A stretch of DNA of 64,000 bases from Onchidella celtica (taxonomy: Eukaryota > Mollusca > Gastropoda > Systellommatophora > Onchidiidae): the NCBI GenBank assembly GCA_963931925.1, contig OZ007582.1:22472224-22536223 (forward strand). The letters are read 5' to 3'. The notes under the pieces are model-generated. The model did not search any database. It was not told the DNA's origin and saw nothing but the letters and a program-made list of their open reading frames with translations. A program made the position numbers and the translations under genes. Below, one piece after another: positions 8,611-54,400 of the stretch (position 1 is its first letter; the number at the start of each line of letters is the position of its first letter).

Positions 8611-11600
8611 ATGACTGGAGATGAGCAAGGGAGTCAGGTGTTGCTGGATCACAACAGCAGCACACAATATACTGATGTCGGTCAGGGAGTTCAGTCTAAC
8701 CTGATTCCTTCCACTGCAATTTCAGCAATGTCACATAGCTCCACTGTCAGTACAGAAGGTAAACATGATTTTGACTTATACAATAATACACAGCCGGAAT
8801 TGCATCATTGAAGGAAGAGTCTTGATATGTCCAGAGAAAAAATGTGCTCATTTTGTTGGCAAGATACAAAAACCACAGAAAATCTGTGGGGTCGCAGCAA
8901 GGCTTGAAGCAAAGTCAAAATATGGCAAAAAGAAAAAGTTGTATGTAGCAAAGCTTCTTGTAAGAAATAATACAGTAACGATACAAAGAAGGCGAAAGAA
9001 AAGAGAAGACAAACCAAACTTTCAATGAATTGATCGTTTTATTAAATCGTTTGGGTATTATTTCTTACTCAAGGCTTTGCTACATTTTAGTTTCCGGTTG
9101 TTGGAACAACTTGGGATGGTACTAAAGGAACAAATTAACATCCCAAAAATAAGTTTCTAAAATTTATATTAGAATGGAGGGACAGATAAAACATGATATG
9201 GATATAAGACAGATGTGGAGAATTGATTGCCTGTAGACCTGAAGTTGATGATTACGTTCACTTTCTCAAACATGTACCATGTAAAATAATGTCATTTCAT
9301 TTTTTGCGCAGGGAAATATTAAATTATGGATGAATTACAGGGTTAAAATGCCTGAAAACCATGCACATGCTGGACTGGTTGTTAAAATATCCATTATCGT
9401 GGAGGAAATAATAATTTCTTTATCTTACTTGTTTTTTACTGTGCTTCTCTATCATATTCTCACACAGAAACATACCATCCGCCTGTTATTTGTACAGATC
9501 TGATTATTTATCCATATTTCAAAATTTGTCTCTCCATATTGGTCCGTTCCTGAGACTTTTCTCACAACCAGTCACTATTCTCTTTGGCCAGGCCGTGTTT
9601 TTTGTTTTTGAATTGTATTTTTGTAGGGGTGGAAGGGAGTAAGTTTTTCATGTCAAACTTCACTGTATTCTTATTCCTTATAGATGAAGACAAAGTTTTT
9701 GCTGAGAAACAAGACAAAGAAAATACAGTGAAGGTGTGTGGTGACTGGGCCTCATTTTGTTAGAAATTTTCTTTCCCAAATCATAACTTAAATCTGATCT
9801 TAATAGCTTTTCCTCCCATCAGAATTTACAAAATTTTGTTAATTAGAGGCATTCCATGAGGAAATATGGATATAATTGGAGACAACATATCATCAGTGTG
9901 CTAATACATTGTATATTGGCCTAACTCCAACTTAGGCCAGAATCCAGAATTGCAGTGACCTTTCACATTCCTCATGGAGTCCAGCCCATCACTGCTATTT
10001 AAAATAAAAAGAAAAGCACCAATCCATTCTCACAATAAATTGCGTCAGTGGTGAAATTTTAGAACAACACATTTAATGACCCCTAAACCAACAGCTTTTT
10101 TTTGCTTTTCTGAAAATTTTGAAAAAATCAGATAGGTCATTTTGTTAGCACACTGATGATATTTATCATTCTGATGCTTGTGCATGTGTTTCCCTTGGGT
10201 AGAGGAATTATGCTGTACAGTCTTTTGTTCGGACTAGCCGAGGCAAGCAGCGTTGCCCGGGATAAATCTGTTTATTGGTTTCAGTTCTGCTTGACTAACA
10301 GTGGATCTGCTTCGCCTTGCCCGTTCCTTTAGGTTTATTTTGTTGTTGTTCTTCATTTGTTTATTTGTTGGTTATAGGATAAACCTTATTCCCTTGCGCA
10401 TGAATGCTTTACACACCCTGGCAGCATTTGGGGCAAAGATTGTCACGGCATGACAATAATCTGCACAATGTGTATTTAATAATGAACTCATTGGCAGGAA
10501 CTGATAATGCTGTGGGGTCATGAATTCTTGGAAAAGAAAGGATCGGGGTGAAAATATACATGTAGTGACACAAAGCAATTTCAAAAGAAAAAATATACTT
10601 CCCCATCACTTCAAGTCTCCAAATAGCAAAAAGAACCATCTGCAGATCAAAATGAAGGCATCTTTAAAATTTCACACAAATCTGAACTATGAGCGGCAGT
10701 AGGTCTTGGTAAAAATGCAGTTTTTATAACGTGTATATGGCATAGTAAGCCAACTGAGAATGTTTGTTAAAAGCACCATCAATTATGAAGATAACAGTTA
10801 CCAACTCACAGTACTCCTCCCATATCCTAAGTGTGATCCGAAATATGTAGCTCATTTTCTCAAACTTCACATTAATAGTCAGAAGTCTGAAGAGGTGCAA
10901 AATTTTAAGTTCAAAAAATGTCATTCACTGTGATTTTGACTTTGCTAAATTTTAATGCTCTTTTTTTTGTGTGTTTTTGGCAGGTTTACAAGAGAAGATG
11001 GTATGTCTTGCTTGTTTTCAGCTCATATACATTCACACAGAGCATTGTATGCAACACTTGGGGACCAATTTCTACTTCTAGCAATGAAGCTTTTGGCTGG
11101 GACAATGCTATGATTGCATGGATCAATAACTGGGGTCCTATATCTTATGTCTTGGCAGGACTTTTTTATCCCTGGCTTCTTCAGGTCAAAGGTAAAAAAT
11201 ATCAGTGTTTCCTAGTTTTCTTTCTTTCTTTCTTTTTAAAAAAAATTATTCTTCAGTGTTTCTGTTAATTTATGTCACATCGGTAATTCGCCATTCATAC
11301 TTCATCACTCTCCATTTAACCATAAAAAAGTGAGCTCTTGCTAAGTAGTGACACAAGTCACATAATTGTATTTCATCTACCATGCAACCATGGAAAACCA
11401 GTGTGACTTCAGCTGGTACCTGACACTGTTTCAAAGAGCTCAAACTGTGCATGATGAATGATCCGTGTGACGCCTGGCTTAGACTTACAAATCACATTGT
11501 GTCATAGCCACGGAACCCACCCCTTAAGTTAGTTGATGACAAGCTTATCCTGTGCAGTTCCAAATACCTCATCTAGTAATATAGTTTACAAAAGGGAACC

Positions 11601-14600: not shown

Positions 14601-17600
14601 CCTGGAAGCACCCGCAGTTGTTGGGCCGTGACGGTGACCTGGGTCACTCATCAGTCAGTGAGCACCGTAGAATGAGTGATGCAAAACGCCTTTAAAAAAA
14701 TTTTAATGGGGAGTTATTATGCTAACAGTGTTTGATTTTAGTGATTAATCGTTACTGGGCATGCAGTAGGCAAATGGTGTGAGTGTAAAATATTTAAATA
14801 TTGGTTGGTTTAGTTGTAATACGTAGTTAAAATTGCCCTTATTTTACTGCTGACACTGCTGTTAGATATGACGTAATAAAGATCCATAATTCGGTAACGG
14901 CCAGTGAGTTCCTGTTCAGATTTACAAAATATGAATTAGACACATATACAGGCTTCCTTGCCATGTGGCTTTTTCTCTGCGGTTTTTATAAACGATACAG
15001 GTCAATCTAAGCAGCTATGTGTTGTCACTTAGCATATTATGTTGCCCTTAGCTTGAACTTGCCTTCTCCTCGTAAGAATATTCGCACATTTCTTTAACTT
15101 TGAATAACTTATTTATGTACACTAAGTAGTTTCGAACTGCCTCTGGTTCATTGTTTTGTGGAGGGGCCGGCCTCTGAATTTTTATTTTGCCGCACTTTAG
15201 GGCAGACTTTTGACTGTGCAGGTCAGTGACGGATCTGCTTCCAACAGTTGGATTTTCATGATGAATTCTAGTTTACAAAAGTCATCATTGGTGCCACATG
15301 CTCTTTTTTTTCAAGTCTGGCGATAGCCTGGTGGCTATTCTCAATCCATTTCTCACCCAGCAGACTGAGCCCGAGTGTATATTGACTTGTATAATGTGGT
15401 ATGCAGTGGGGTTCTAAAATGTGCTGTTTTGGGATTGTTTTGTTGGGAAACTTCCTCCTGAATGTGACCATGTAATTGTCTATCGGAGTTTGAAATCCAG
15501 AGAGTGATTCTGTGTTGATGGATTTGGTGTGTGAGAGGCTCTGTGAACTTGACTGACAGAGTTGTTGAGATAGTCGAATGTCATTTGTAGTATACATGCC
15601 TCCTTGATGATGAATGGGTCGCTTGTGTGCGTTTTAAGCCCGAGTAACAATCTCTTCAGTGAGGCGTTTGTAAACTGCCTGCTGAGATACTTATGGCAGT
15701 GGCTACCAATAAATGACCCGCTGTCATAAGCCTGTGATGTGATTCTGTGTGTTTTGAGAATTCCATCAAAACAGGAAGTAAGAGAGCCAGAGTTTGGGGT
15801 AAGCTCAGAAAACATGATATCAGATTATGCTTCTTCTGCCTGTTTCAATTCTCGTGTGTGTTTTGCTTTGTTGGCATCCGTGTGGCTGAAAATTATGCGA
15901 GTTGCATTTACATAAGGTATGTCCTGGCTGGTTGTTTCAGTGTGAGGTATGTTTTGGTCAGTTATGTCTGTTTTAGAGAGATTTGTAAATTGTACTTGGA
16001 GAGTCAACAGTATTTTTTTCGGTTGCTGAGGTGAGATGACTGAGATGCAAACTGCTTCATTGAGACACAGCTATGAGACATTCCCTGCCTGTGTGAACAG
16101 ACAGTATATGCTGTTTTGGCACAGTTGGGGTTGTGTTTGTCACAAATCCCAGACTGGGAGATGTAATAAGTTATGACAGGACAACAATCACGAACGAACA
16201 AGTTTAACACTTAACAGAACAACCCATCAGACTCACACATTTATTAAACATAATTATACAGATAATAGCGCAATTACATACATTATATTATTGAATTTAA
16301 CTGCCGTACAACGGCCTTATTCCCACATGCACTCTTCCTCGGATCCACAACCCGGTAGTTACTTCCTAAAGACACTTCGGCCTCAGCCTCTCCCCTCAGG
16401 GTCTTAATAGCACATTAATAATTCACTGGCACCGCAGTCTCTCAATATCACCTTCCTATTGCCATAACACCTTAGCATTCCACTAGCACCTCAGCAGGGC
16501 AATAGCACATTATCATTTCAATAGCCCATCAACATGGCAATGGTACATTATCATTTCAATAGCCCCTCAACATGGCAATAGTACATTATCATTTCAATAG
16601 CCCATCAACATGGCAATAGTACATTATCATTTCAGTTAGCACATTCACGCTCATATCTACGTCCCTGTCCGTGGCCAGACTGCCACGACTTTATGTGCCT
16701 CTACTGTCCTGCACCGACAGCCTCACTCTTGGCCTATGTGTGGCCTCCGGCCCTATGCTGGCCTATCCCCTGTGCTCACCGAGGTGGCTCTTTGGCCCGT
16801 CCCTGACACCTACAAGAATAACATTACATTGGTATAATACCATACCATTTCTAATCACTTCACCCCTCATTACAACTCATGAAGCGTACACACAATAGTT
16901 CACATTTCACTCACCAAACCTCTTACGGTAACACACCTCCATCGTAGTACACAATACTCACTCGTGCTACAAATCCATGAACTCAACTTTCATCTATCGC
17001 TCATGGCGCACATTGCTATATCCAATATCAAGGACTTCCACATTCCTCACATATACTTATTTACATCATGGTAATAGACGAATATAATACATCAATCATA
17101 ATTATCAATCATCGTTTCACCTACCAGTCATCACTGGAAAAAACTCTCTCACTAGTCTTCCGACTGCTCCCCTTATGTTCGCCCACTGGGCTTTCTCTTG
17201 CGTCCGCTCTTTAGGACGTTCTAACTTGCAGTGATAGTAATACAGCGCCCTCGCCTCCTTCAGACCCCCACCACTCATAACATGCACGCTTTCCCTTACT
17301 TGTCTACGTGCGTTAATTTTACTCTCCTCCTTTCCCCCCGTAATTATTAACTATCGCTCACTCCACTCGTGACAGTGTTCACTCCAAATGTGTAAACTGT
17401 TTTCAATATGAGGTCGGCAGAATCAAGAGAAGCTGTTCTTTGTCAACGTTTAGCATCCTCAACTATCTTGTAGCATTCTGGACAGATATATTTGGAATGT
17501 TTGCTGATAAAGCCTTACCTGATATCTAGTCTAGACAGCAGACAAGATGAATGTCGCTAGCAAATGATGAACACAAAAATGTTTTTTGACAATCTTTCTT

Positions 17601-20600
17601 AGTTTTTGATGTTGAGTCTTCCAAATACACACAGACTGTCCAGAGCAAAAATATGTTTATCTTGTGTATGCTTCATGTTATTATTATTTTTAAGCAGTTT
17701 ATTACATCACAAGAAAGTCTTGTAGGTTGGCCAAGATAACAACAATAGGTGAGCACGTCACATATAAATTGATATAGCATTCCAACTAAAGCTGCGGCCT
17801 TGATAAAATTAGCGCAGACACAACAGAAATTATTCCTGATTACACAGATGAAAACTGCAAACTGTTTTCATTGGCCATTTTTATGTAATTATAGCATCTG
17901 CAAGCTACCCCTTGCATTTTCTTTGTTATACTGGTGACTGAGCATGTGTTCACTTCTTTTTTCTTTAATTGTTGACGTTCACCAGAGTGTACTCCGTGAC
18001 CTTACCCTCCCTTCCTAGTGAGTAGTTGTTGAGTGATCGTAAACATTAGTATGTTCCTGAACGTTCAATAACGTTGTGGATATAGAATTTTACGCCAGAT
18101 TTGGCCTTGAGTGATGTAACCTGGTGACGTATTGATACGTGATTGGTTAGTCTGTGTGTTCGGGCGAGGGCAGAGGTTACGTTTATTTCGGGAACTTTCT
18201 GTAGAAATGTCTATTTATAATGTTTGCCTCTGACTATAAAAAGACATTACTGCAAAGATGCATTTTCATTCATTACTTCAGTGTGTCTCTTGCCAGCAAT
18301 CACAAGCAAAGACTAAATGCTTCTCTTGGCTGTATCATTAATTTTGCAGAGTGAATGACCCTGAATTTCCATACAAATAATTATTTCTAATTTCTTACAC
18401 ACTAAAGCAATCTAGTGATGACATTCTGGTGTCTTTATTAACAAAGTTGTAACCCTAACTATTGCAGAGGACGAGTTGTTGTTGAAGCACAAATGAAGAA
18501 ATTTGACATTTAATATGGGGTCCAGAGCTGTAACTCACACTCACTGCGACCTTAGTTTTTGTTTGTTCCAAGTCCATTATTTGCACAACTGAGAAATTCT
18601 ACATTAAATGTTAACGGCTCTAGTATTATGATAAGAAGTTAGTCTAAATTGTTACTGTGAAAAAGCTTGACAAGTGCCATTATGCATTTTAAACAAGTGT
18701 CAAAGTGTGCATTTCTTATACCTCTCCTATACTAAAGATCTCCAGTTTTTCAGAAAATGGAGATAGAACAAATAAGGTCGCATTATGTAGGAGACAGTTG
18801 TTGAAGCACAACTCAAGAAATTTAACAATTAATTTGTGATCCAGAGTTGTAACTCAACCCATGTGAGTGGTTGGTCGGTGAGTAAGTGAGTTTTCCTTTC
18901 CGTGTGGCATAAGATATTTAGTTGTTCGCTGGTGCCTTCCTAGTATTTTATTGTTAAGATACAGTTACTAAACTTTAGTATTATTTAATCGATCGTCGGA
19001 TCTCGTCTTTTTTATTCTACAGCTGTAATAGTTCCGTTTTCTAAAGGGTTCTAGTTAGATCAACTAACTCCCCCCTACTATAACGTGCTAGAACAACCTC
19101 AGCTGTTACAGTAATTAACAATTGTTTATCTATGTTTGGAAATGGAAAAAGCACAAAGTATTGGCAATAAACACATACATGTGTAGAACAAAGACAAAAG
19201 CATGTTGAAAGCTGGGACGTCTGCAGACTGTAAGGGAAAGAGTGTTGCTAGAGTCTTCCTAGCAAGAAATCAGGATGGGCCCACTGGGTCCGTTGCAAAT
19301 TTGATATCAAAAGAGTCGAATTTTAACATGAAGTGTGTCTCCCGTTAATTGCTGCCTGCAAAGCGATCTGACCGCATTGGCCCCAGTCAGCATTCCATCG
19401 CCGGAGATGTATGACTGCCAGCCTGCGATTTCGCACATTGTTGTACACCATGTGGCATTTCTTTTTTTGCACTGATAACTTCTGATTTAATAAAAAATAT
19501 ATAACAGTATGAATTCAATGTATGCCATCACATTTTATTATGGCAACTTCAGTTGTTTTTATTAGGAAATTCAACGGATTTCTGGTACACTTTTTTTCTT
19601 TAGGTCCAGCGGTGGTATCAGATGCCCCTCCAGCTGAAGTAAATATGACAAATGTTAATCCACTTTCGTACAATCAGTAAGTTGGGATGTGTATAATATA
19701 TGTATATGTTGTTTTTTTTTATGTTATCAGTGCAAGGTATAAGATTCTGTTCTGTAGCTTCATATCAGAACTTATTGCAAAAACCTTGGGCTTAACTTAA
19801 AATGTTATACACAATTTAAAAATAAAATTTTGTTTAAACCTTCAAACTTGAGAGTTGTTAACTGAAACACCCTTATAAACTAATTAGCTATGACGGGGTG
19901 AGCGTTTACATGTGTTTCAGGCTTGAGCGTTAACATATGTTTTGGGCTTGACTGGCAAAAACCCAGGGGGGTGGGGGAGGTTGAATTAATCAGAATGTAA
20001 ATGTAGATTACTAAATTGCATAATCTCACTATTTCTAATTAAGCTACTTGAGAGTAGAAAAGTTCAGCTCCAGTTATGAGTAAAATAAGATAGTTGGTGT
20101 TTAATCAATAAATCACTTTAAATGTAAAGGATTATATAGGTGCTATTGCAGGATTCAGTATAAAAAGAACAATTCTAACAGAACTACGAGCTTGCATATC
20201 AAAAAATGTTTCTCTTTTCAGGAGTATTGTGTTTGAGAGTTCACCAAACACTTCTTCATGGTCCAATGAGACAGGTAGGCCATGACATTGGAAATAACGA
20301 GTGAACTGATTACAACAGTTCTTTATGAATGACAACCACAAATTTATGTAATTGTTAACTTTCTTGGAAGTGCTACAGTAACTGTCCCCTACAATAGTTT
20401 GAGTTACAACTCTGGATCACAAATTAATTGTTAAATTTCTTGAGTTGTGCTTCAACAACTGTCTCCTACATAATGCGACCTTATTTGTTCTATCTCCATT
20501 TTCTGAAAAACTGGAGATCTTTAGTATAGGAGAGGTATAAGAAATGCACACTTTGACACTTGTTTAAAATGCATAATGGCACTTGTCAAGCTTTTTCACA

Positions 20601-23600
20601 GTAACAATTTAGACTAACTTCTTATCATAATACTAGAGCCGTTAACATTTAATGTAGAATTTCTCAGTTGTGCAAATAATGGACTTGGAACAAACAAAAA
20701 CTAAGGTCGCAGTGAGTGTGAGTTACAGCTCTGGACCCCATATTAAATGTCAAATTTCTTCATTTGTGCTTCAACAACAACTCGTCCTCTGCAATAGTTA
20801 GGGTTACAACTTTGTTAATAAAGACACCAGAATGTCATCACTAGATTGCTTTAGTGTGTAAGAAATTAGAAATAATTATTTGTATGGAAATTCAGGGTCA
20901 TTCACTCTGCAAAATTAATGATACAGCCAAGAGAAGCATTTAGTCTTTGCTTGTGATTGCTGGCAAGAGACACACTGAAGTAATGAATGAAAATGCATCT
21001 TTGCAGTAATGTCTTTTTATAGTCAGAGGCAAACATTATAAAGAAGGAGAGTACATGTTTTGGTCTGTTCTTATACCTTTGCAGAGGCCAGAATTGAAAA
21101 GGAGAGACATGAAATAATGTTGTACATGTATTATGGTAAGTTTTTTTTCATATACTACATAATTATATTGTTAGATTTTCAATTCCTGTTATTAATCAGT
21201 TGTTTTTTTCTCAATGTGGCTTTGGCCAAGAGATTTGAAACTAACTTCTGTGACAAATAGAAACTGAAATTTCTAACAGGAATTTTTTTAATAGACGGAT
21301 TTGTACCTAATCCATATTATAGAAGAACTTGATCTATTTTTAAGGCATACTATTGTTTCACTAAATAAAACTAAAACTACAGACCGTTAAATCCAAGGCA
21401 GATAGTGATAATACTAATATCACATTTTTTGGTGAGTAAGACATTTCAGCATTTGGCAGCCACATAGTTACATTGTGAATCACAGTTCAATGGAGCCATT
21501 TTACTCTTAGTATACTGCTGTTCACTACAAGTTCTGCACACATGCACACCACAGGAGAGTGAATCAGATCTGTTGCTAGATCATAGTAGTGGTCTGTTGA
21601 CCAGGAGATTATTAAAGAAAAAATGCAAAGAGCGTGGAAAGGCGAGGAAGGAAGAGGGGGAAGAAAAGGGGGGAGCAGGTTATTTTATATATATGTTACA
21701 TCTACTTTGTACAAAGTGGATGATCTCATTCACAACAAACTTCAGTCTTCACAAGGACCACTTGCTCTGTAAAGCTGAACCTAGCACGCCAGCAACTTGC
21801 TTTTTAGTGATCTGGATATTTGGATCATCCACTTCAAAATATCTGGATATCCAGATTATGATCCAAATTTTAGATCAGTTCAGAAAAATGGGGGGGGGGG
21901 AGGGGGGGGGGATTAGATGACATCTTTTTTTTAATCGTTAAGGCAGAGACAGGGGAGAAAGTCAATATGTATTATTACTGAACGAGCTTCTGATCCAGAT
22001 TTCTATCAGCAAGTTGGAAGTGGGTCGTATATGGGTCATCCACCTGTATCCGGATAACTGGATTGATCTATTTAACTGGCTATCCAAATCTGAATCTGGA
22101 CTCTCGCCCAGCACTAGCTGGACCCTGCTTGATGGTCAGATTATGCTAAGAGAAGTCTTGGTCCTCAGGTAACGTTCAGTTTTTCCATTTCTATTCATGC
22201 CCCAAATGTGAAATGACACAAAGGCATTTTTTTTTTCTTTTTCCCCTCAGTATTACCCTAAATCTCATTTAAAGTTTGTTATACCATAATTCCTGGCGAA
22301 GTTAGGATCAAAATCCCCGGATACTGGGAGATAGACATGAAATTTTGAAGTGATGTGAAAGATCCCTGCACATGGAAGATCCTACGAAAGACAGAAAAAC
22401 TCAATGACACAAGAAAAATGGGCAAAAATTAATTACCACCATTATGGAAGAAACCTGTTACTAATATCAAAATATGCTCGCCTCTCATGCCAAGGGTCCC
22501 GGGTTCTAAACCCGGGCAGTGCAGGCATGTTGGAAAGTGGATTTTTCTCGTATTTTCAAGTCCCAGGTCCTATTGGGGGGTAGGATCGAGTAGTTCTTGG
22601 AAATTGGATTTTTCTCATATTTTCAAGTCCCTGGTCCTATTGGGGGGTAGGATCGAGTACCTAGTCTTCTCGGATAAGGACGAAAAAATTCGGAGGGCCC
22701 GTGTGCACGTTGCGCACGTTAAAGATACCTTGGCAGTTGGAAATCGTAAAGAGCAGGCCGAAAGGCCGCTGCCCGGGCAAAATTGAAATTAATAGATTAA
22801 AATTTATCCATATCATCTCTTCCCCCCCCCCCCCCCCCCCCGCCAGAACAAGAAATAATAAAAAAAACAAGTAAAGTGAGGTGTAAATGCCAAGGGCAGC
22901 GAACCTCCTAAAATAAAGACCTCAAATCATCAATCAATATCAAAATTAGCCTACTTTTGGAGTCATGACATTGCTGTCGAGATGAACCATTCGTTCTCTC
23001 AGAATAGGTCTGCATACCGTGCATGTATTCATTCTGTTACGGACTGATGGAGCGTGCACTGATGACATCATTGCTGGGCACACAGCGCAGTGGATGGAAT
23101 TTGGCAAGTTGATTTGTTTGGGTGTCCTGTATTTCTATTAGCTACCAGCGAGGCAAAAGTCCTAAAAGGTAGCTGTGATGCAAATCAAAGTTCATCGAAA
23201 CTGCAGAGTTCTGAGAGCAAGGATTTTGTTTATAAAATGTCTTTCAGTTTTTTAATATCTGACCCAGTTAGCAAGAGTTATGTTTCTGTTTTTGTATCAT
23301 ATTTTGAATGTTTTCCTCAGTATGTGGCTGGTCTGCTCTGGTGTTTGTAGTGATGGTCTGTTACTTTCCAGCAAAACCTCCTCAGCCCCCTTGTGTGTCA
23401 GCCATGCAGGAGAGAGACAGATATTGGTTAGGGATGTGGTCACTGAGACGGTGAGAATCACTTCCAAAAGAACAAACATGAATGAACAAACTATTAATAA
23501 ACGTTGAAAATTAAAGTAGGTGAAAAAGGTCTTAATTTAATATGTCACGTTATTTCATAATTATATAAATTAATGTAACCATACCCTGATACCCACAAAT

Positions 23601-26600: not shown

Positions 26601-29600
26601 AGAAAGAAGGTGACACGCATGGGCCAGGGATATGAAAAGTTACTTTGCTAAATTTAGGGGCAATGAGCTAACACAGAGCTGAAAGCCTTGGATTTTCAGA
26701 ATAAAAAGATCAATTTTGTCTATCCTCATGATGGAGGAATAGGCCAAGATTGCCATCAATGGCATCTTATCTTATGTGACTTATGTGCCAAAAAATCATA
26801 TTAATTCAAAATTAAAACCAAAAAAAAGAAAAAAGAAAGGAAGAAAAAAACACTTCTCAAAACTTCTTTCCTGTACAAAGTGCAAAAAAGAAAATCAAAA
26901 ACAGGTTACAGTTCAACAAGTAAGAAATAAGTTCCATTGGGTTTAATGTGAAATATGAGCCTATGCAAGACTTCAAATGAATCTAACAGTAGTAACAGGC
27001 AGTTTTCCAGAGAATTGGTGCTGATCCTGCTCATTCTAAAAAACAGGCACTGTAAGAGGGATGAAGGGAACTGGTGCCAGGTCTTCAGGGCACACCAAAT
27101 GGTCAGTCAGGTCTTGGGATAAAGAGGAAGTAGTAGAAGAAGATGAAGTACTATTTACTCCATTTCCAAATGCATGTATGGATGAAAATATGTGCATGTA
27201 TCAAACATAAGTTATAAATCTACAGTTCAGTCATGTATTTTTCAAAGATATACAATTTTATGTTTTCCACAGATTTGCTGATCACTTTGTTCGTCATTTA
27301 AAACTGTTTATCTTCATTTTGTACATCCTGGCAACTTGCTGCTTTATTGTCCTTGCTCTGGTGCTGATAAAGGTCATACCTTTCTCAGAGGGTAAGTTCT
27401 GATAGTACATACAGTGAGGACAAGACAATAATCCATGGGTATGTTGCGAGCTACAGTTGAGTGACACTGACTACAGTGGACATTGCTTAAGATGATGTCC
27501 AGGGGACATAAAATTTAACATCTTACTATCCGTTAAATCATCTTAAGCATTATTAAGTTATCTACCTTAGATAAACTATGTTGATAAATGATGGAAGCAG
27601 TATTGTTATGTAGGTGACCTTTGGTTGTTTTTTTCTAAGGAGGGGATATTTTTTGTGTGTAGGCCAATGTGTATTAGGGTGTGTGAGGGGATATTGTTTA
27701 GAAAGAAAAAAATATTCACCCAAAGCGATGGTGTCTGAACATTTCTAAACAAAATTTTTAATGTTCTGTTTCCATTATAACCAAAGGGCAAAAATTAGCA
27801 CACAGTAATACCTGTCAGTCAACTTAACATTATGTTGTTATATGACTGTCAGCATGCAAGATACGCCAACCAAACAAACATAGCTTGCATTTTCCTGTAC
27901 TATTAAATTTATTTAATTGTGAATATCATACAAGACCCTCCCGCTGGTCACACTCGCATCATGAAGCACTGAGTCTAAACTAACACATAAACATCGCCCA
28001 TCCACGGTGACCGAGTGAGCAAGGTATTTGACACCTTCGTGGATTTGCTGGCGCCGACTGTCTTTGCTCCGTATCCCGTGAAAACGATAGAATCTCTACT
28101 GCGTAGTTAAAAAAAAAAAAAAGTTAAACAATTGTGGCCACTTGTGTCACAGTACGTTCACACCAAACTGGTGACAACGGACGTGCAATCACGGCCCAGC
28201 GACAACGGTACAAAGTTTCTCTAAATCATATTATTATCGGATTCAGACCAACCTACTCAAATCAGATGAGTCATTTTCTCTCGCCCGTGCGACTTTTCAC
28301 TTTTACCGCTGCAGTAAAAGTTCAACGACACTCAGCCGTGGGATTGTTTTTCTTTAATTTCGCGTACTCCAAGCCGCCAGGCCCATGGCATCTTAAAATA
28401 GCACGGGCGGGATGCTTGAAGAAAAATTTAAAATACAATTTTTTCATCAAATGTTATTTTTTAGCGCAGATTTGAATTCAGCGACCCAAAATTAGGTACA
28501 GGCGGGAAGGCTTGGCGCTTTATCGCTTTATAAAGAATTTTTTGGGGTAAATATTCATGTTTAGTCATTTCAAAACGGGCGCTCGGCCGTGTTCACATGA
28601 CCGTTTGGTGAGAACGAACCATTACAGTACATCCACGTGGGTAACCCTTTGCTTTTTCTCTCTATCGTAACCTCCGCTCTCAATGCCCGACCTGAGTAAA
28701 ATCAGTGGCCCTGTGAATTTTACGATATCAGATGCACCGTTTACTATTATACTGCATTATCGATCCACCTGATGAATAATACATGGCAACATATTTGAGC
28801 TCGCATGAGTGCGAGGGATCAGTGATGCCAGCAGAATAAAATTAAATTCCTATACTCATGGACAAAGTGACCGCATCCAGTCGTACGCATGGCACCTCGG
28901 GCGCACGCTGGGTAGGTGACATAACAGGTGTAAACAAGGCGAGGCAGACAAAGAGCAATGGCAGGTATGAGCTGTAGCGAAACGACGATTACGAAAGATG
29001 ACGCCGTGTATTTTGACCATGACACGGTTTAGGAAAATCATACTAAGCATTTTTTTTCTTCTTTGGGACTTCAAAATGAGGTCACACAAAGAGTAAAAAC
29101 GGATAGAAAGATGTCATACTATGCGTTTTTTTTTCCACGGAAATGAGGCATTGGGGAAGGGATAAAAGAAAAACATCATACTAAAAGAAGATCATTTTAA
29201 GCGACTTCATTTTAAGTGGAGTCGACTGTATATGTACTCGCCCAGCCTTTTCATGCAGTGCTAATCAAACCCTGAGATTGGGAAGTTTCACATTGTACAA
29301 AAGTATGTTTGTGTACAAAACATTGTTATGTTCCTTTCTTCTCAGTTTTTACAAGCTGTACACAGCTGCTGCCATATTGTGGGTTTATTAGGGGATTTTT
29401 TGAGTTTTTTTTTGTGGATTTTAAAACTAAACCCAAAATCGTGTGTTTACAGGGAAAATTACCTTGAAATAAGAGCATTCAGAGGAAATCTGGAACATGT
29501 GAGCCACGCAGTGTGAAAGGTTAACCTTAAGACATCTATTTTGAAAGCCAATTTGAATCAAATGTACGCTTCAGTATGGCGTACCACAAGGCTCAGTGCT

Positions 29601-32600
29601 TGGTCCTATTTTGTTTACTATCTATACTATTCCACTTGTACATGAAATAAAGAAATTTAATTTACAATATCATCTCTATGCTGATGATACCCAGCTCTAC
29701 AGTTCTGCCTTGCCATGCGATGTTGACAGCCTTCTGCAGCAGGCTGGAAACTGTATAACAGAAATTAAAAGCTGGATGAACCAAAACAAACTGGCACTAA
29801 ATGAGGATAAAACTGAGGTTATTTTATTAGGCCGTGTAACGGGTTCTGCAAGAAGTGGACAGAACTGAGATGATAATTGGCACTAATTCAATAGAAATTT
29901 CAAAAAAAGTAAAAAACCTAGGGGTTTACATTGATTCAAATCTTTCTATGTCATCTCAGGTTAGTCACCTCATTCGTATTCTATACATGGAAATCTGGAA
30001 AATTGGTAAAATCAGACATCTTATTTCAACTGAAACTGCGGCTGTTTTAGTAAATTCTTTTGTACTTTCAAAGCTTGACTATTGCAACTCCCTTTTGGCT
30101 GGAATTTCACAAAAAAATATTAGAAAACTCCAAATTGCTCAAAACAATGCAGCGAGACTTGTTTTGAAGAAAAAGAAAAGAGATTCAGCACTGCCACTTC
30201 TGCAGAGTTTGCACTGGCTGCCAGTCGAGAAAAGAATAATGTACAAATTGTCATCCATTTGTCACAAATGTGTCAATAATACTGCTCCATCGTACCTAGT
30301 TGATTTAACTGATTACTATGTTCCATCTCGTCAACTAAGATCATCATCTGACACTACAAAATTGAAAGTACCTAAAATGAATCTGTCCACTGTGGGAGAA
30401 AAGTCCTTTTCATTTCTTGGCCCTACCATCTGGAACACTCTTCCAAAGACAACCAGGGAAATTAATGACATTGGTTCTTTCAAACGCCATCTGAAGACCC
30501 ATTTCTTTCAGACAAACTAGGCTAGGTGTTTTTCGGCAGCAACAATAGTAAATATTTTTGAATTTCTTTTGTGTATGCGTGTGTGTGTGTGTGTGTAAGA
30601 GTTTGTTAAAGCGCCCAGAGCTTGTCATCGACGGGGTTGGGCGCTATATAAATGCAATATATTATTATTATTATTATTAGGTTACATCTTTGAGGAGATG
30701 AGATTAAATTTGCAAACAAACGAATTTTCAAGATTTGTGCGTCAAGTTAAATATGGCATAGGAAAATGTTCATGAGAATGGCAGTTCATCAGACGGAATC
30801 ATAATTAGGTTAAATCTGAAGATTATTTTCTTCTTTGCAGTGAATGATGAGCTGAACATTTGTGGAGCACTGGTGGATTAATTCACTCCATGTCAGGTTG
30901 ATTACATTTAACCCTTTTGCTGCTAAGCCCAAACACCCTTCCTTCCTTTAGGACTACCAAAATAATTTATTATCTTGTAGAAAGCCAGCAGGAAGTAATA
31001 AAATTAAGAAGTGCAAAACATGCCAGAATAATGTCAGCTAATAAATTGGCCTGGTGGCAGTTTTAGCATGGAGCAGTCTTCCGCAACATAAGATGGGCTG
31101 ATATACCGGCCTGGTGGGAGCAAGAGGGTTAAAGTTTTTGAGATAACTCTAGCATTTAAAATTTGTACTCTGTCCTGAGAGTTGTTTTGCTTTTGCCCTT
31201 AGCTCTCCTATATGTCAGTGTCATCGGAGGCTCAACATTGCTAAATGCAGCTGTTCCACTAATCTACGAGTTTGCATGTGAGCTGGCCTACCCTACCAGT
31301 GAGGTCGCTGCCAACGGAGTCCTGACCTTTTTTAATAATTTATGTGGGCTGATTTTTCTGGCCTTATTTTCTATACCCAAGATAGGTGAGCATACCAAAA
31401 TACGAAGTTTGTTTTAATCTCTGCTGGCCCAGTCAGGGCTGGGTGGCCCGGCCTCAGATCATCCTTTAACTATTTGTAAAAACGTGTTTTTCACCCTCAC
31501 GCACTGTGCGACCTTTGTTCTTGTTTTTTCAAACTCCACCCTTTTCACAAGTGAGAAGTTTGACGTTAAACATTTGTGGCTTGGGTGTTATGGTAAGGAA
31601 TTACAATAAATCATGGCTGTGAAACAATGGATAAGTGCCACAATGCATTTTAAACAAGCGTCAGCGTATGCATTTGTCATACCCCTTCTTCATACTAAAA
31701 GATCTCCAGTTTTTCAGGGAATGGAGAAAAAACAAACAAGAACTAAGGTCTCAGTTGTTATTCCTTGACTTAGTATATTTTCCATTTTTCCTAAATTTTT
31801 AACATTTTCCTGCTGACTTGGGGCTCAATTGAATCGATGGTCAATTTTTCATAGAATTTTACTTATTTTATATTGAACCTGTGACCTATATTGTCAACAT
31901 AAGGTTATCAGGGTTTTCTGTGGAAGGTACTTTTGTACGGATAGTTCTTTTTACTCTATATTTCAGTTAAAAAAATATGAAAGGAATAGGGCGTTCAGAC
32001 TGCAGGTAAAAATTATTTCAATCAGAGATAGAAGAAAAGGTACTGGAACCTATCAATAGCATTTTCATTTCTATGAAACAGTAATCAAGGCTGCCCAGCT
32101 CTGAACAGGCTGTCTTGGTGTTCAAAATGCTCTTGCCTGCCTGGGTTAATTATCCATCTCTTGAAAAAATGACATTTTATGTTTAAACCAGTCATTTCAG
32201 TGAGAGCAATGGCTAGTACATCCATTTGTTAAATCATGCTAAATGGTAATGAAGAAGTACTATTGACTTGAAGACTCACCTTGATCCAGTGTGTTTTTGT
32301 TTAGTGACTGGTTCACCTTCTGTCAGTTTTCTGTACACATGCATTATCTCATTCTGCCTACTCAAAAAGTCGATGATCAACTTGATACAAATGTGAGGAA
32401 GCATAAAATAAATAAGGCATAAAATATCACACTGTCACAAAAAAAAGACTGAAAATTGAATAAAAAAGCATTTCTCTGTGTGATTTTTCGCTGTACTTCG
32501 AGTTAAGTGTTTTTCTTAACCTGTTCAATGCTGCATGGTTTTCCCGTCGCACGCTGGGCAGTTCACTCTCACGGTAAAGTTTAGGGACATATAGTGCAGG

Positions 32601-35258: not shown

Positions 35259-35675
35259 ATTTGTATTTGTATTTGTATAACTCTTTAATCCCATTTGGGA
35301 AATTTGCCTTTGTGCCATGGCAGCCCAGTTATAACTGGAGCAGGCACGTCGTCGCCACAGTGCAGCGCCGGTCGGCGGTTTGTTTTTTTTGTGGGGGAGA
35401 TGAGGAGGGAGGGGGAGGGACTGGTAGAGATGAATTTTAATTTAATTTTGCCCGGGCAGCGGCCTGTTCGGCCTGCTCTTTACGATTTCCAACTGCCAAG
35501 GTATCTTTAACGTGCGCAACGTTATCCGAGAAGACTAGGTACTCGATCCTACCCCCCAATAGGATCAGGGACACGAAAATATGAGAAAAATCCCAATTTC
35601 CAACATGCCTGCACGGCCCGGGTTTCGAACCCGGGACCCTTGGCACGAGAGGCGAGCACCTTGCCTCTGGACCAC
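35259..35675 (-). mobile_element. Full-length tRNA-derived SINE
   Basis: A 417-bp insertion into copy C, flanked by CTTTGT at 35253-35258 and 35676-35681. Read on the minus strand it starts with a tRNA-like head bearing an A box (TGGTCCAGAGG) and a perfect B box (GGTTCGAAACC), followed by a unique body and a (TACAAA)n tail. RNA polymerase III transcription is therefore expected from this promoter type. Related copies are at 22478-22850, 26450-26545 and 40308-40610. Confidence 0.85.
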
Positions 35676-40305: not shown

Positions 40306-40307
40306 AT

Positions 40308-40610
40308 AGGATCGAGTACCTAGTCTTGTTGGATAAGGACGAAAAAATTCGGAGGGCCCATGTGCATGTTAAAGATACCTTGGCAGTTGGAAATCAAAAA
40401 GAGCAGGCCGAACAGGCCGCTGCCCGGGCAAAATGAAATAAAATTTATCCCACTCCCTCCCCCTCATCTCCCCCCCCCCCTCCCCAAAAAAAACCCGCCA
40501 ACCAGCACTGCACTGTGGCGACGACGTGCCTGCTCCAGTTGTAACTGGGTGCAATGACACAAAGCCAAATTTCCCAAATGGGATTAAAGTAGTATACAAA
40601 TACAAATACA
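40308..40610 (+). mobile_element. 5'-truncated SINE copy
   Basis: Starts at the GGATCGAGTACCTAGTC position of the SINE body and ends with the (TACAAA)n-type tail at 40594-40610. It shares the CTTGGCAGTTGGAAATC, GCAGGCCGAACAGGCCGC and CACTGTGGCGACGACGTGCC blocks with the full-length copy. The tRNA head is missing. Confidence 0.8.
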
Positions 40611-40844
40611 AAATATATAAAAATATACATATATAAAAATTGATTTTTCAAGTTTTTGAATTACTACAGTGTCAGGAAATGGTGGCGATAATTGTGCTCC
40701 TCGAAATTTATTCATTTTTGAAAATTTACATTTACTTTTCATAAAAGTAAAAGTCAACAAACTGCACAGCAGCTTCAGTTATAGTTTTAATGCTGATCTG
40801 AATGCCCCGACAACACCATGGGACATGATGTGAGTCAATGAAGC

Positions 40845-45467: not shown

Positions 45468-48400
45468 TTATCTTTCCAGATGGATCTTTTGCAGGGCTGA
45501 ATCCACAATGGATCTCATCTGCTGGATGCATTCTGATGGTTTTTCATGACTGACCAAAGCACTGCCAGATACAATCAGGTTTGCTCCAGCCTTTACAAAG
45601 AGAGGAAACACATGTGTGTAAAATGTTCACACAGTGTAAAAAAAGTGATTAAAAAAATGGTGGGGGTACATGCAGCCATCTGGCCAAATTTGGATTCACA
45701 ATAGAATTTTTGTTCCCAATTTTTGAACAGTTCATTAGTTTTATCCAATATATCCCCAATACTAGTTCAGTCCGAGGGTCATGAAATAATATTTAATCTT
45801 AAATGGAAACTGCCTGTGCCCCTTGAAGTAGAAAGGAGACCTTAGCCAACAGATAGGCTACCCTGAGTTTCACCGTGTTCTATTTAATTCCATTCAAAGC
45901 ATGAAAGAAAGAAAGAAAGAAATAGAAAGAAAGAAAGACAGAGAGAGAAAAAAAGAAAGACAGACAGAAACAGAAAGAAAGAAATAAAGAAACAGAGAAG
46001 AAAGAAACAGAAAGAAAGACAGAAATAGAAAGAAAGATAGAAAGAGAAAAAAAGAAAGACAGACAGAAACAGAAAAAAAGAAAGAAAGAAACAGAGAAGA
46101 AAGCAACAGAAAGAAAGAACATCTTTACAAACTTCAAACTGACTACCAATACTCACATCAGCACACTGCTGAATTGTCTTGGGTCCAACACCACCATCTA
46201 CTCCAATGTCTAAATTCTTGAATTTGGTCCTGAGATATTCAATCTAAGGGGAAAAAAAGTTAATCTTATACAATTTCCAGAATTTTCTTAACTCTCTTAC
46301 AACAATCCTGCTATAATGTATAACTGCTGCCACAATATTTCCAAGCACCAATCTGCTGAGTCCCATATGTTAGTCATTTTGAATAAATACGCATTCCATC
46401 AAGTATGAATCTTGTCTACATTTCACATTCACATGTCAGTCCTTCATACTGATCTGCACTTGAAGAAAAAAAATCCACAATATTTGAATACACATGGTAG
46501 GATGAAAGTTACTTTATCAAGATATGCAGTTAATTGCCATACTTTTTTATCATCTGGAAATAAGTAAATACAAATCAATCCACATCCTGTGTGCTATGCC
46601 TTAAGCCAGTTGTCCGGTCAGTGACCTTACTCATGGGGAATTTTATCTGGGTCACACTGAGCCTTGCCAATGTGCGATGACCACACTACCGCTTTCCACG
46701 TGGTTTGGTTCGTATTTGATCAATATGAAGACATTCACTGTTTTGCCACATCACGCTCGATAATGAATTAACCAGCAAAACCTTAGTCTGTCAGTCTCTA
46801 ACCAATGATCTGACTTATGATACCAAACTGACAGCTGTAATTTTCATGAGAACAAAGCATGATAACTAGCCAACCCCCCCAAGCCCTAAACAAATGGTTT
46901 CATCCTGATTGACACATACTAATGAACCAATGTGGGTATTTGGGGCAAAGGTCATTTCAGAGCTTGTTTCTGATTGGTTCTTAGATACAGACAACTCTAC
47001 ATGATATTCAGCTTGGGAGAAAATGAAAATACAGTCGACTCCACTTTAAATGAAGTCGCTTAAAATGATCTTCTTTTAGTATGATGTTTTTCTTTTATCC
47101 CTTCCCCAATGCCTCATTTCCGTGGGAAAAAAACGCATAGTATGACATCTTTCTATCCGTTTTTACTCTTTGTGTGATCTCATTTTGAAGTCCCAAAGAG
47201 GAAAAAAAATGCTTAGTATGATTTTCCTAAACCGTGTCATGGTCAAAATACACGCCATCTTTCGTAATCGTCGTTTCGCTACAGCTCATACCTGCCATTG
47301 CTCTTTGTCTGCCTCGCCTTGTTTACACCTGTTATGTCACCTACCCAACGTGCGCCCGAGGCACCATGCGTACGACTGGATGTGGTCGCTTTGTCCATGA
47401 GTATAGGATTTTAATTTTATTCTGCTGGCATCACTGATCCCTCGCACTCATGCGAGCTCAAATATGTTGCCATGTATTATTCATCAGGTGGATCGATAAT
47501 GCAGTATAATAGTAAACGGTGCATCTGATATCGTAAAATTCACAGGGCCACTGATTTTACTCAGGTCGGGCATTGAGAGCGGAGGTTATGATAGAGAGAA
47601 AAAGCAAAGGGTTACACACGTGGATGTACTGTAATGGTTCGTTCTCACCAAACGGTCATGTGAACACGGCCGAGCGCCCGTTTTGAAATGACTAAACATG
47701 AATATTTACCCAAAAAAATTCTTTATAAAGCGATAAAACGCCTATACCTAATTTTGGGTCGCTGAATTCAAATTTGTGCTAAAAAATAACACTTGATGAA
47801 AAAATTGTATTTTTGTATTCACTGTTACGTCAACCACAAGTAAAGACAGCCCCAGGATCCACCGAGAGGGGGGAGTTGAGGATGGATCCACAAGGATTGA
47901 CCCTATGGATAACGACCCAAGCATGAAATGGACAATGACCCATGATCAACGAGAAAACAGCTCCATTTGCGGGCAGTGCGGCAGGAGTTTTGGCACTTGG
48001 CGGGGAATGAGAGTGCATCAAGGGAGAGCCTGTTTGAGGGGGAGAAGACAGTGCGGATCGACAGATCGTAAGACGCGAAGCAAATCATCCCAGGATGAAA
48101 ACCACAGCGGAGAGATTAGTGCTTCGGTCAACTCTTCTTCTGCCTAGGTCCAGGTTGGTGCAGATCCGACAACCCAGGAACCAGGGTCAAGAAAGCCGAG
48201 AATTCTGTGGCCTGCTGCCAACAAGAAGGACAAATACAAAATACTGGAAAAGAAAGTCAAAGAGAAACTGAGAGAATCCAAGAAGAAGGCTAGCATAGGA
48301 GATGCCAAAGAGATGTTGGGTCTGTTCGCAAACATCATCTACGAGACAGCAATGGAAGAGTTTGACAGCTGCGAGAGTAAGAAGAAAACACCGGCGAAGA

Positions 48401-51400
48401 CGGGAGGGCTGAGTAGAGCTCTGGCGCAAATCAGAAAACAGAAAAGGGACCTGCAGAAGCAGAGAAAAAGTGCACCACCAGACCAGGAAGAAGGCCTGAA
48501 AATCTTGTATGAAGACCTAAAAAAGAGGAGCAGAGACCTGCAGAGGCAAGAAAGAAGGTGCAGCAGGCGAAAGGAACGCAAAAGAGCACGGGAGCAGTTT
48601 TTGAAAAATCCGTATGAGGCAGCCAAGAAGTTGTTCACAGAAGCACGAAGCGGGAAGCTGACTTGCACAAAAGAAGAGCTGGATGCTCAGGTCAGGCAGA
48701 CATACAGCGATCCCAAAAGTAATGAGCCGCTACCAGACATGCCTGAAGCGACCGACCGCCCCTCGCGTGAGCTTCCGACTGGGGCCGTTCACTGAGAGGG
48801 AAGTGGACGATTTTGTCAAAAAAGCAAGAGCCAAAAGCGCACCCGGGGGCGATGGAGTGTCCTACAAGGTTTTTAAGTATTGCGACGAACTAAGACACAT
48901 TCTGTACGTATTGCTGAGGGACCTGTGGGATGATAAGGAGCTTGTCAACGACTGGTGCAAAGCGGAAGGTGTATACCTACCGAAGGAACAGGATGCAGAA
49001 AGCATCGGACAATTTCGCCCTATCTCCATCATCAATGTGACGTGCAAGATCTTCATGGGTATACTGCGAGGAGGGTTGTTGCTTATTTGCAGGGCAATGG
49101 CTACGTGGACGAAAGCGTCCAGAAAGCAGGAGTACCAGGGATGCCGGGCTGCATTGAGCATGCTTTCACGATTTGGGAGGCAATTCAGGATGCCAAGAAA
49201 ACCAAAAGTAACCTGAACGTGGTCTGGTTGGATCTGGCGAATGCCTATGGGTCAGTACCCCACGAACTGCTGATGAAAGCAATGGAATTCTTCTACATCC
49301 CGCGCAAGGTGCAAGACATCATGAACGAGTACTACAGCAAATTCCAGATGCGATTCTCAACAGAAGAATTCACAACTGAGTGGCACCGTTTGGAGATCGG
49401 TATAGCAGCTGGCTGCACGATTTCGGTCATCTGGTTCATCCTAGTGATGGAGATGCTCTTGAGGTCAGCAGGCTTAAGTGAAGAAGAGGCAGAAGTAAGA
49501 GCACCGAAGAAGGCATTCATGGATGATGTGACTCTGCTGACAAAAGATGCGGACATAATGCAGACGGTCTTGGCGCGGCTGGATGAGCTGGTAACTTGGT
49601 CGAGGATGAAATTCAAAGCCAAGAAGTCCAGGAGCCTGACCTTGCACAAAGGAAAGCAGAAGCAACAGAAATTCACGATCGCGGGGGAGAAGATACCCAC
49701 AGTGAAAGATGAGCCTGTTAAGAGTTTAGGACGATGGTATGCGGGAGCACTGAATGACAAGAGCCGTGGCGTGGCTATCATGAAACAAGCAGAGGATGGC
49801 CTGAAAGCCATTGACAAGAGTAGGCTGCCAGGAAAGTACAAGATATGGTGTCTTCAGTTCGCCCTATACCCACGGCTTGCATGGCCACTGACAATGTACG
49901 AAGTCGCCTTGTCAAGAGTTGAAATGATAGAGAGAGCGTGTAACAACTTCATCAGAAAGTGGCTAGGCCTACCACGAACAATTAACACATCAGCCCTGTA
50001 CAGGCAGAAAGGCGCGCTCCAGGTGCCAATCACTTCAATCGTGGAGATCTACAAGGCAGGAAAGATCAGGACAGTGATGATGCTGAGGGAGTCGAAGGAC
50101 CACAAGATCAGCGACAACCCACCGGATGTCAGAACGGCAAGAAAGTGGAGGGTGGAGGACGCGGCTGATGAGGTCATCTCTGTGCTGAAGCATGGCGTCA
50201 TTGTTGGCCCTGCACAGGCAGACAGGCTGGGACTGGGTAGTGGTGACTTCAAGCCCTTTGGGAAAATGTCACAGAAGGAGAGAAGATCAGCTGCAACAGG
50301 GCAGGTGCGAAAGATGGAGGCGGAGAGGCGGGAAGTTCATCTAGTGCAGTGTGCTCAGCAAGGACAGGTGACGAGTTGGGAAGAGCATGTAGTGGAAAGA
50401 AAGACTGGGTGGAGTGAGGTATGGGAGTGGAATACTTCAAGGCTGAGCTTCCTTCTTCGGGCTACCTACGACGTTCTGCCTTCACCGGTGAACCTGGTCA
50501 GATGGAAGGCCCAGGAAGATGACAAGTGCAGGTGCGGAAAGCTAGGAACCATGAAACATATCCTCTCAAACTGCCACTTATCGCTGAACAGATACACGTG
50601 GAGGCACAATGAGGTGCTCAAGATTCTCACAAAGACAGCAAAGGAGCAGGTGAATGAGGGAAAGTACGCTCCTAAATCGCAGGACCACGGACTGAGAAAG
50701 ATCACGTTCGTGCCGCAAGGAAGTAGGGTGCCTGAAAGAGAGAAGACAAGCAAAGCCCCTGCTGACGAAAGTGATAGCCAATGGGAAGTGTCTGCAGATC
50801 TAGAAGGCAGCAAGAAATTTTTTCCCATTCCAACGACAAAGAAGCCTGACTTGGTGTTATGGAGCGAAGAGGAGAAAGAGGTACATCTGGTAGAGCTGAC
50901 GGTGCCTTATGAAGACAATATCAAGGCAGCACACGAGAGGAAGGAGAGCCGCTACGAAGCCCTTGTCGAAGAGTGCGCGGAGGCGGGATGGAAGGTATCG
51001 CATTTCCCAATCGAGGTCGGGTGTAGAGGCTTCATTGCAGACAGCGTCAGCAGGTGGATGAGAGTGGCTGGACTTGGCCCAAAGAAAGGAAATGCCGTGA
51101 GAAAAGATCTACAAAAGACCGTAGAAAGAGCAAGCCATTGGATCTGGTTGAAGAGAGAGGATACCACCTGGAATGAGTCCTGACGGTTGACAGTAGAGGC
51201 ACACAGTCGAACTGGCAAGGAGACCTCACATCAGTGAGGGGGCTCGGTGCGTCATTAAAATAGCTGTAGAGAGGTAGAGCCCGAAACAGCGACGCATTCT
51301 CTCCTGATGATCTCCACGCCAGAATCCGGTCTGCGGAGCATTCGGCTGTCAGCGGCTCAGGGGGCTGTTTTCAAACTACTTAAATTTTTCTTCAAGCATC

Positions 51401-54400
51401 CCGCCCGTGCTTTTTTAAGACGCCATGGGTCTGGCGGCTTGGAGTACGTGAAATTAAAGAAAAACAATCCCACGGCTGAGTGTCACTGAAATTTTACTGC
51501 AGTGGTAAAAGTGAAAAGTCGCACGGGCGAGAGAAAATGACTCGTCTGTTGTGAGTAGGTTGGTCTGAATCCGATAATAATATGATTTAGAGAGACTTTG
51601 TACCGTTGTCGCTCGGCCGTGATTGCACGTCCGTTGTGGCCAGTTTGGTGTGAACGTACCGCGACACGCGTGGCCACAATTGTTTAAACTTTTTTTTTTT
51701 TAAACTACACAGTAGAGATTCTATCGTTTTCACGGGACACGGAGCAAAGACAGTTGGCGCCAACAAATCCACGAAGGTGTCAAATACCTTGCTCACTCGG
51801 TCACCGCGGATGGGCGATGTTTATGTGTTAGTTTAGGCTCAGTGCTACATGATGCGAGTGTGACCAGCGGGAGGGTCTTGTATGATATTCACAATTAAAT
51901 AAATTTAATAATACAGGAAAATGCAAGTCATGTCATATATCAACATAATGTTAAGTTGACTGACAGGTAATATTGTGTGCTAATTTTTGCCCTTTGGTTA
52001 TAATGGAAACAGAACATTTTGCTTAGAAATGTTCAGACACCATCGCTTTGGGTGAATATTTTTTTCTTTCTAAACAATATCCCCTCACACACCCTAATAC
52101 ACATTGGCCTACACACAAAAAATACCCCCTCCTTAGAAAAAAACAACCAAAGGTCACCTACATAACAATACTGCTTCCATCATTTATCAACATAGTTTAT
52201 ATAAGGTAGATAACTTAATAATACTTAAGATGATTTAACGGATAGTAAGATGTTAAATTTTATGTCCCCTGGACATCATCTTAAGCAATGTCCACTGTAT
52301 TGCAAATTTGTTGAGAAACAGTTAGCCGGTCGATGTTATACCTTTTGATAGTATGGGGAGAGCCTTTGAAAGGTTAGTCTTTATGATTCCGACCAGTGGT
52401 TCACTGGTTAATGTGTCCTTGTCACATTGCCTTTGATTTAGAAGAGATACAGTGAGCAATAAGATGGGTATTACGTCTCAGAGAGGACAGTGACCTGACG
52501 CGTGAAAATACAGCTTGCGCGCTGAGCTTGACCTTGCCATATTGGTATGCCCATGCAAAGTGAATGTCTGGAAAGTCCATGCCGTATTTCGACGCCTCGA
52601 TGCCTCTTGCAGGGTGAGGGGTTAAAAATACAAAAACACATTCAAATGAAATTTAAAAAAGCAAAAATTATGCTTAAATGCAGCTGAAATATAACTGTTT
52701 TAGTTGTTACTCAATTGTGTTAATAAAATAATATCATGGAAAGGTAACTTCTGGCCCACCGGGCATAGAATGATATGTATGTGTGCATTATGGGCCGTGA
52801 GTTTCTGATCTCTTTCACTCTTTCCACCCACCTTCGGGATACAATCTGTAATGAACTTCTGACCTCCAAAGCCTGGATGCACCGTCATTATGAGGACACA
52901 GTCCAGCTGATCAATGTATGGCACCAGAACCTCCACATCTGTTGGTGGATTGATCCCCATTCCAACCTGGTGAACAATTACAAAATATGTTGATTAATGT
53001 GCATATAGTAAAATCCTTTGGAGAACCTATTTACAAAGTATAATGACAATTTTCTCAACAGTTTGGGAACATTTGCTAAATTTAAGCCCCTAAAAAGGAT
53101 CATTGTTTCATGATTCTAAGGATGAACTATGATAAATAAGTAATACTGAATTCATTATTATGCTCGATGTCTGAGATTTATATCGGGAAGTTTTATCACA
53201 ATAAAAAAAAATTTAAATGGTACACTACATTGACAATGCATGAATATTATTGCCACGGTCCAATAATGCACCTGACATTCCCAGGAGCATATATATCATG
53301 CGCTGGCATGACCTTGCTCTGCTTACCAAAATAATAATGAGCAATATAGAGTCAACAAAAAGATGAATTAATCATTAACCTAAATTAATAAATGGCAAAC
53401 TAATTAGTAATCTTATTTAAACAAACTGGGAATAACTCAGCCACTGATAGGCATTTAGGTATTATTTACACTGTGAATTGTACAGCTCACATGTAGTGCA
53501 TAGTGAAAATGTATGTAAATAACAAAATAGGTTACCAAGCAAAAACATAGACTACTCTACGTTGAGGTGATGAAAATATGGTCGAAGACAGATAAATCAA
53601 TTTAAGCTTTTAAGAGGAAGTGCTGCAGTGAAAACTGAAATCTACATCCCACCTTTTCTAATGCATTTTGCGACCTGTCTTTGTGTTTAACAAAGTTGAG
53701 AGAAAGAACCCAGGGATTCAATTAGGCTGTGACTCCAACCATTGGTGGTAACTGATTATAATTATATTCAGCGATATTGGATTTGATACAAACTTTCAAA
53801 TATATCAGGTGATAAAAAAAAAAAAGTCCCAACATTGACACCAAATATCTCGCAATCCTTTTGATGAATCTTTGAGAAATTTTGGTAGAGTTATGTTAAT
53901 TATATGTGTAATACCATATTAAAATTTCATCAAGATTTAATCATTACTTTTAAAGATATTTTAGATTAAGTGAGTGTCTGTCAAAAATTAATAAAACAAG
54001 ACAGCCGATCAAGGACGAGGAAGATTTTAACGCAAATTCAGCTTTCCAGCGCACAACAGTTGAGTATTTTTTCTCCAATTTTTTTAATCAAATTCAGCCC
54101 ACCTTTCCAATCCAACCTTATTTTGTAGATCTAAGTTTAGCAGACGACACTCAACCAAGCCTTTTGCATCCTATGGTGATACATTGATTACCTCCAAGTT
54201 GAGTGTATTCCAACTAATGTGAAATCCAGTGGCATTTCAACTTAAAATGTCCCTTATCGAGTTTTGCTGTCAAACCCTTTACATGTACTTCTAATTTCTT
54301 AATGAAATGATGATTTTCACTGACACACATCTTCTCAAAATAAAAGTTTATTTATAATATCGTCATGGTGCTGACCTTTTGGTCTAAGTCATTTTTTGCA

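Follow-up and report, generated by a model that had tools for sequence, protein, structure and literature searches.

A 644-bp inverted repeat around two exons of an SLC49-type transporter gene in Onchidella celtica, probably formed by a recent local inverted templated insertion

The stretch of Onchidella celtica DNA analysed here, called the window, comprises 64,000 nucleotides (assembly GCA_963931925.1, contig OZ007582.1, positions 22,472,224 to 22,536,223 of the forward strand), and all coordinates below count from its first base. It contains a gene whose translation, taken from position 10984 onward, gave a Pfam match to MFS_1 (1.4e-12) and, as the best PDB matches, FLVCR2 (8.2e-10) and FLVCR1 (5.4e-7). 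Judged by its translation, the gene is an SLC49-type transporter. An earlier note on this DNA had named it SLC49A4. The membership in SLC49 was borne out by the matches to FLVCR2, FLVCR1 and MFS_1; the putative subtype A4 is consistent with them. Mammalian SLC49A4 (DIRC2) has been described as a lysosomal pyridoxine exporter that is mostly present as a cleaved form (PMC9719028).

Three exons of this gene are relevant here, and their numbers are provisional, kept as in the earlier note. Exon 6 (19604-19676, forward strand, 73 bp) has an open frame continuous with its neighbours and AG/GT borders. Exon 7 (20222-20274, forward strand, 53 bp) also has AG/GT borders, and exon 8 lies at 21085-21135 on the same strand. 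Upstream of exon 6 there were four candidate coding exons (at 8611, 10984, 12374 and 13012). A small exon may have been missed among them, because the join from the exon at 8611 to that at 10984 was out of frame. In the translation, an open frame at about 31200-31400 looked by eye like one of the transporter's later exons.

Exons 6 and 7 together measure 126 bp and have matching phase, and exon 5 joined exon 8 in frame when both were omitted. Skipping or flipping the pair would therefore remove 42 codons in frame. These codons contain four N-glycosylation sequons (NMT, NQS, NTS and NET), as expected from the earlier description of this segment as glycosylatable.

The two exons are enclosed by an inverted repeat. 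The left arm (18214-18857, forward strand) and the right arm (20399-21042, reverse strand) are each 644 bp long, and direct comparison showed them to be reverse complements with no mismatch. The base beyond each end was mismatched, so the repeat is maximal, and the BLAST coordinates of both arms agreed with these borders. A repeat finder gave 649 bp in place of the exact 644, by ungapped extension through a few mismatches. The spacer (18858-20398) is 1,541 bp long and holds exons 6 and 7 with their splice borders, and 42 bp separate the end of the right arm from the start of exon 8. The equal arms without divergence, the exon-bearing spacer and the 42-bp distance had all been read from the letters before, and each came out the same when computed.

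The copy number of the arm was determined in the same assembly (1,140,862,475 bases in 43 contigs). Among 40 scored matches of 4054 candidates, only the two arms were full-length. Arm positions 1-267 gave just two candidates, and both were the arms themselves. The other 38 scored matches spanned only about 230 bp (arm positions about 333-563) at 81-86% identity. This part represents a dispersed repeat inside the arms (20480-20710 on the reverse strand in the right arm, mirrored at about 18546-18776 in the left).

For comparison, inverted repeats with a length of 100 bp or more and an identity of 90% or more were sought in 150,000 bases of this genome, sampled at random as 15 stretches of 10 kb and including 5,000 N. 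Two were found, with lengths of 168 bp (97.0% identity, spacer 69) and 265 bp (98.5% identity, spacer 164), and none in these stretches reached 300 bp. An inverted repeat of 644 bp is far beyond chance. As few stretches were sampled and the window had been preselected, the comparison shows only that such repeats are not everywhere.

Other repeats were present in the window. Longer inverted pairs, with 94-98% identity and spacers of about 18-24 kb, were formed by 27472-29231 with 47029-47813 and 51380-52299; these are probably copies of one mobile element. By eye, the translated open frames at about 29557-30520 looked like a LINE-type reverse transcriptase. Dispersed repeats related to one another lay in both orientations at 22530-22834, 35260-35598 and 40307-40612, and a 38-bp unit formed a tandem array at 16500-16645.

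The sequence around the left arm revealed where it lies. Many genomic copies matched the first 253 bp or so of the spacer at 93-98%, and the sequence to the left of the left arm matched the same loci. The left arm thus splits a dispersed element (17890-19110, forward strand) into a left half at 17890-18213, with 90-92% identity to two sister copies (L012 and L014) over the matched stretch, and a right half at 18858-19110, with about 98% identity to the best sister copies. The element is flanked by an identical target-site duplication, GTAAT, at 17885-17889 and 19111-19115.

Of 1923 candidate sister loci 40 were scored, and 29 of these were examined. The two halves were adjacent in all 29, and the 644-bp insert was absent from every one of them. 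In 22 a paired measurement placed the halves -2 to 16 bp apart, and in the other seven the reported half-matches were 15-23 bases apart. One sister (L041) had a short match to the dispersed repeat of about 230 bp elsewhere in its flank.

The sister elements were mostly near 600 bp long and ended in TG...CA, the first TG reading TA in the window copy, and 18 of 24 full-ended sisters had a perfect 5-bp target-site duplication. Such TG...CA ends, a target duplication of 4-6 bp and the lack of an internal region are those of a solo LTR. Judged by these features the host element looks like one, and it is called LTR-like here.

In the sisters the halves join at a TATA tract. Its commonest form, TATATATGGA, occurred in eight of the 22 paired sisters, and its length ranged from absent (L042) to 16 bp. 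The apparent loss at the insertion was about 10 bp relative to this commonest form only, and the size of the deletion is uncertain because the tract varies in length among sisters. The site in L012 was a perfect 16-bp palindrome, and the commonest form was self-complementary at 14 of 16 positions. A palindromic TATA tract of this kind, as represented by the sisters' sites and not by the pre-insertion state of this copy, may have acted as a fragile site.

The polarity of the copying was read from diverged units of one repeat at the inner edge of the right arm (20349-20414, reverse strand), by comparing the source and derived loci. With the source read in the copy direction, arm positions 229-269 matched 629-668, which spans the arm end at 644 (E 1.4e-5), and positions 573-618 matched 650-694, which lies entirely in the source flank (E 6.5e-8). 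At the left arm, this comparison produced solely the arm-internal match, with no unit across or beyond its edge. Since the units span only the right inner edge, this edge is ancestral, and the edges of the left arm are the junctions. The right arm, in the intron before exon 8, is the source, and the left arm is the derived inverted copy.

As read from the interrupted element, the insertion is later than its host. To place the two on a relative scale, 14 of the 29 sisters, with both ends found and a length of 560-650 bp, were compared with the window element. Over 570 columns with good agreement, the latter had 14 private substitutions (2.46%), at the high end of the 4 to 14 private changes counted in the sisters. 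A copy of the element's age would be expected to show about 31.6 differences between the arms, and none was observed in 644 bp. From these two counts the copy would be roughly 10% or less of the element's age, with a 95% upper bound of about 9.5%. This estimate is subject to the choice of sisters by their similarity to the right half of the window copy, to possible inheritance of some 'private' changes within a subfamily, and to gene conversion, which could give an older copy a young appearance. Very recent duplication, one of the causes of arm identity proposed before, thus has good support, and the analysis adds in which direction the copy was made and where it was inserted.

Comparison of the junctions with three sister versions of the site showed a microhomology of 1 bp on each side, and a search for longer microhomology at both junctions found only this 1 bp. 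It is at chance level and singles out no mechanism. Neither a target duplication of the inserted piece nor a poly(A) was present in the flanks and sister sites read. The absence of both, together with the 1-bp microhomology, fits break repair or template switching, not transposition.

We therefore consider it very probable that the inverted repeat goes back to one recent event, a local inverted templated insertion through break repair or template switching. In this event the 644 bp whose end lies 42 bp short of exon 8 would have been copied and pasted in reverse orientation into a TATA tract of the older LTR-like element, which itself lies in the intron preceding exon 6. The route, with next to no junction homology, would have been the patching of a break with copied sequence, or a replication template switch of the there-and-back type. 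The data are compatible with either.

The strongest competitor is an older inverted duplication whose arms were homogenised by gene conversion. Close inverted arms are good substrates for gene conversion, and template switching has been described as homogenising the arms of short inverted repeats (PMC8604942). On the other hand, the arms remain identical right up to their terminal bases, without any decay towards the edges; conversion tracts do not necessarily produce this, and one recent event accounts for everything. We consider this explanation improbable. Gene conversion, which the earlier note had listed among the possible causes of the identity, is unnecessary as an explanation and retains a place as a possible homogeniser.

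A chimeric molecule or misjoin, arising in the library or the assembly, would likewise yield perfect identity, and the structure is known from one assembly. Against it, there are two separate junctions, each with just 1 bp in common with the empty site in place of the shared words at which assemblers misjoin, and the insert lies within a recognisable element whose target duplication is intact. Nothing comparable was seen in the 15 random stretches, a small sample. For these reasons an artefact, which had also been raised before, appears very unlikely as assessed from the assembled sequence.

Staggered-break inversion creates inverted duplications at both ends of the inverted segment, so that the arms would be filled-in end overhangs and the spacer would have been flipped. 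This was contradicted on three counts: both spacer exons follow the gene's direction and keep the reading frame of the adjacent exons, the inner edge of the right arm is ancestral and no breakpoint, and the element halves flank the left arm in the same orientation. It can be set aside with hardly any reservation.

The dispersed repeat of about 230 bp inside the arm could suggest that the arm is a mobile element in its own right, or owes its movement to LINE machinery. This was rejected as next to impossible on the lack of any further full-length copy among the scored matches, on the two arms being the sole candidates for arm positions 1-267, and on an insertion with neither target duplication nor poly(A). 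The absence of these two features also ruled out a LINE-type insertion as such.

RNAfold gave -1537.6 kcal/mol for 18214-21042, with 642 of the 644 arm pairs in register, a figure that describes the whole piece at equilibrium, not the transcript during splicing. Folded separately, the arms gave -134.9 and -146.3 and the spacer -381.8. A 644-bp RNA stem would be expected to loop out exons 6 and 7, and an inversion between the arms would be possible in the DNA. Either the stem or the inversion would favour an in-frame product without the 42 codons of the luminal loop.

The geometry, as laid out in the assembled sequence, allows flipping, skipping, circularisation and editing. Intronic inverted repeats have been reported to promote circular RNAs, which ADAR can counter (PMC11766002), A-to-I editing of viral RNA has been reported in molluscs (PMC6651903), and in humans inversions are known to recur between inverted repeats (PMC3961182).

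In a more speculative reading, the young copy made exons 6 and 7 a switch, whose in-frame removal gives a second form of the transporter, and both orientations may segregate; we hold this to be doubtful. Equally doubtful is its further detail, that the removal proceeds by stem-driven skipping, circularisation or inversion and that the second form lacks the glycosylated luminal loop. As part of the same reading, the template of the inserted patch may have been nascent pre-mRNA of the gene itself.

The source, the empty site and the rough relative age of this inverted intronic duplication are all readable from one assembly. The locus is a natural experiment, in which a perfect 644-bp intron stem is set against splicing, circular RNA formation and editing. 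The looped exons are jointly in frame; any effects could therefore be tolerated, and may be visible in living animals instead of being selected out. The kind of mutation is already known, and the interest lies in the enclosed in-frame exon pair and in consequences that are directly testable.

Several known systems resemble parts of this locus. In the class 2 templated sequence insertion polymorphisms (TSIPs) described in humans (PMC5110952), a copied segment is inserted with no target duplication or poly(A) and with junctions of the end-joining type, which are marked by a microdeletion, microhomology or added bases. The insert here is similarly a copy of sequence still present elsewhere in the genome, with neither a target duplication nor a poly(A). 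The class 2 insertions described there come from distant regions, whereas here the copy is inverted and its source is 1,541 bp away within the same gene. Because of the nearby source, the event is classed here among local inverted templated insertions and not among TSIPs.

Two systems share the intron or flipping geometry. The inverted repeats that promote circularisation, in the account of PMC11766002, flank exons with complementary stretches of intron; here this arrangement is read from genomic sequence alone. The inversions recurring between inverted repeats (PMC3961182) have the flipping geometry in common with this locus, where it is seen in one assembly.

Three further systems concern the copying itself. 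The small inverted triplications of PMC13334657 involve replication-linked inverted copying, with DUP/INV/DUP segments of about 148/160/148 bp and a 30-bp spacer in the case described, compared with two copies and a 1,541-bp spacer here. The insertions linked to MMBIR (PMC8421209) are, like this one, reverse-complement copies of a nearby template. Those described were germline variants, most with junction microhomology of at least 1 bp, compared with just 1 bp at each junction here, and the search reported there was confined to templates no more than 100 bp away and to insertions no longer than a read, compared with 644 bp copied from about 1.5 kb away. In the perfect hairpins attributed to template switching (PMC8794818), one event produces a perfect reverse-complement stem, as proposed for this locus; the stems described there are short and lie in RNA genes, whereas this one is intronic, 644 bp long and placed around two exons.
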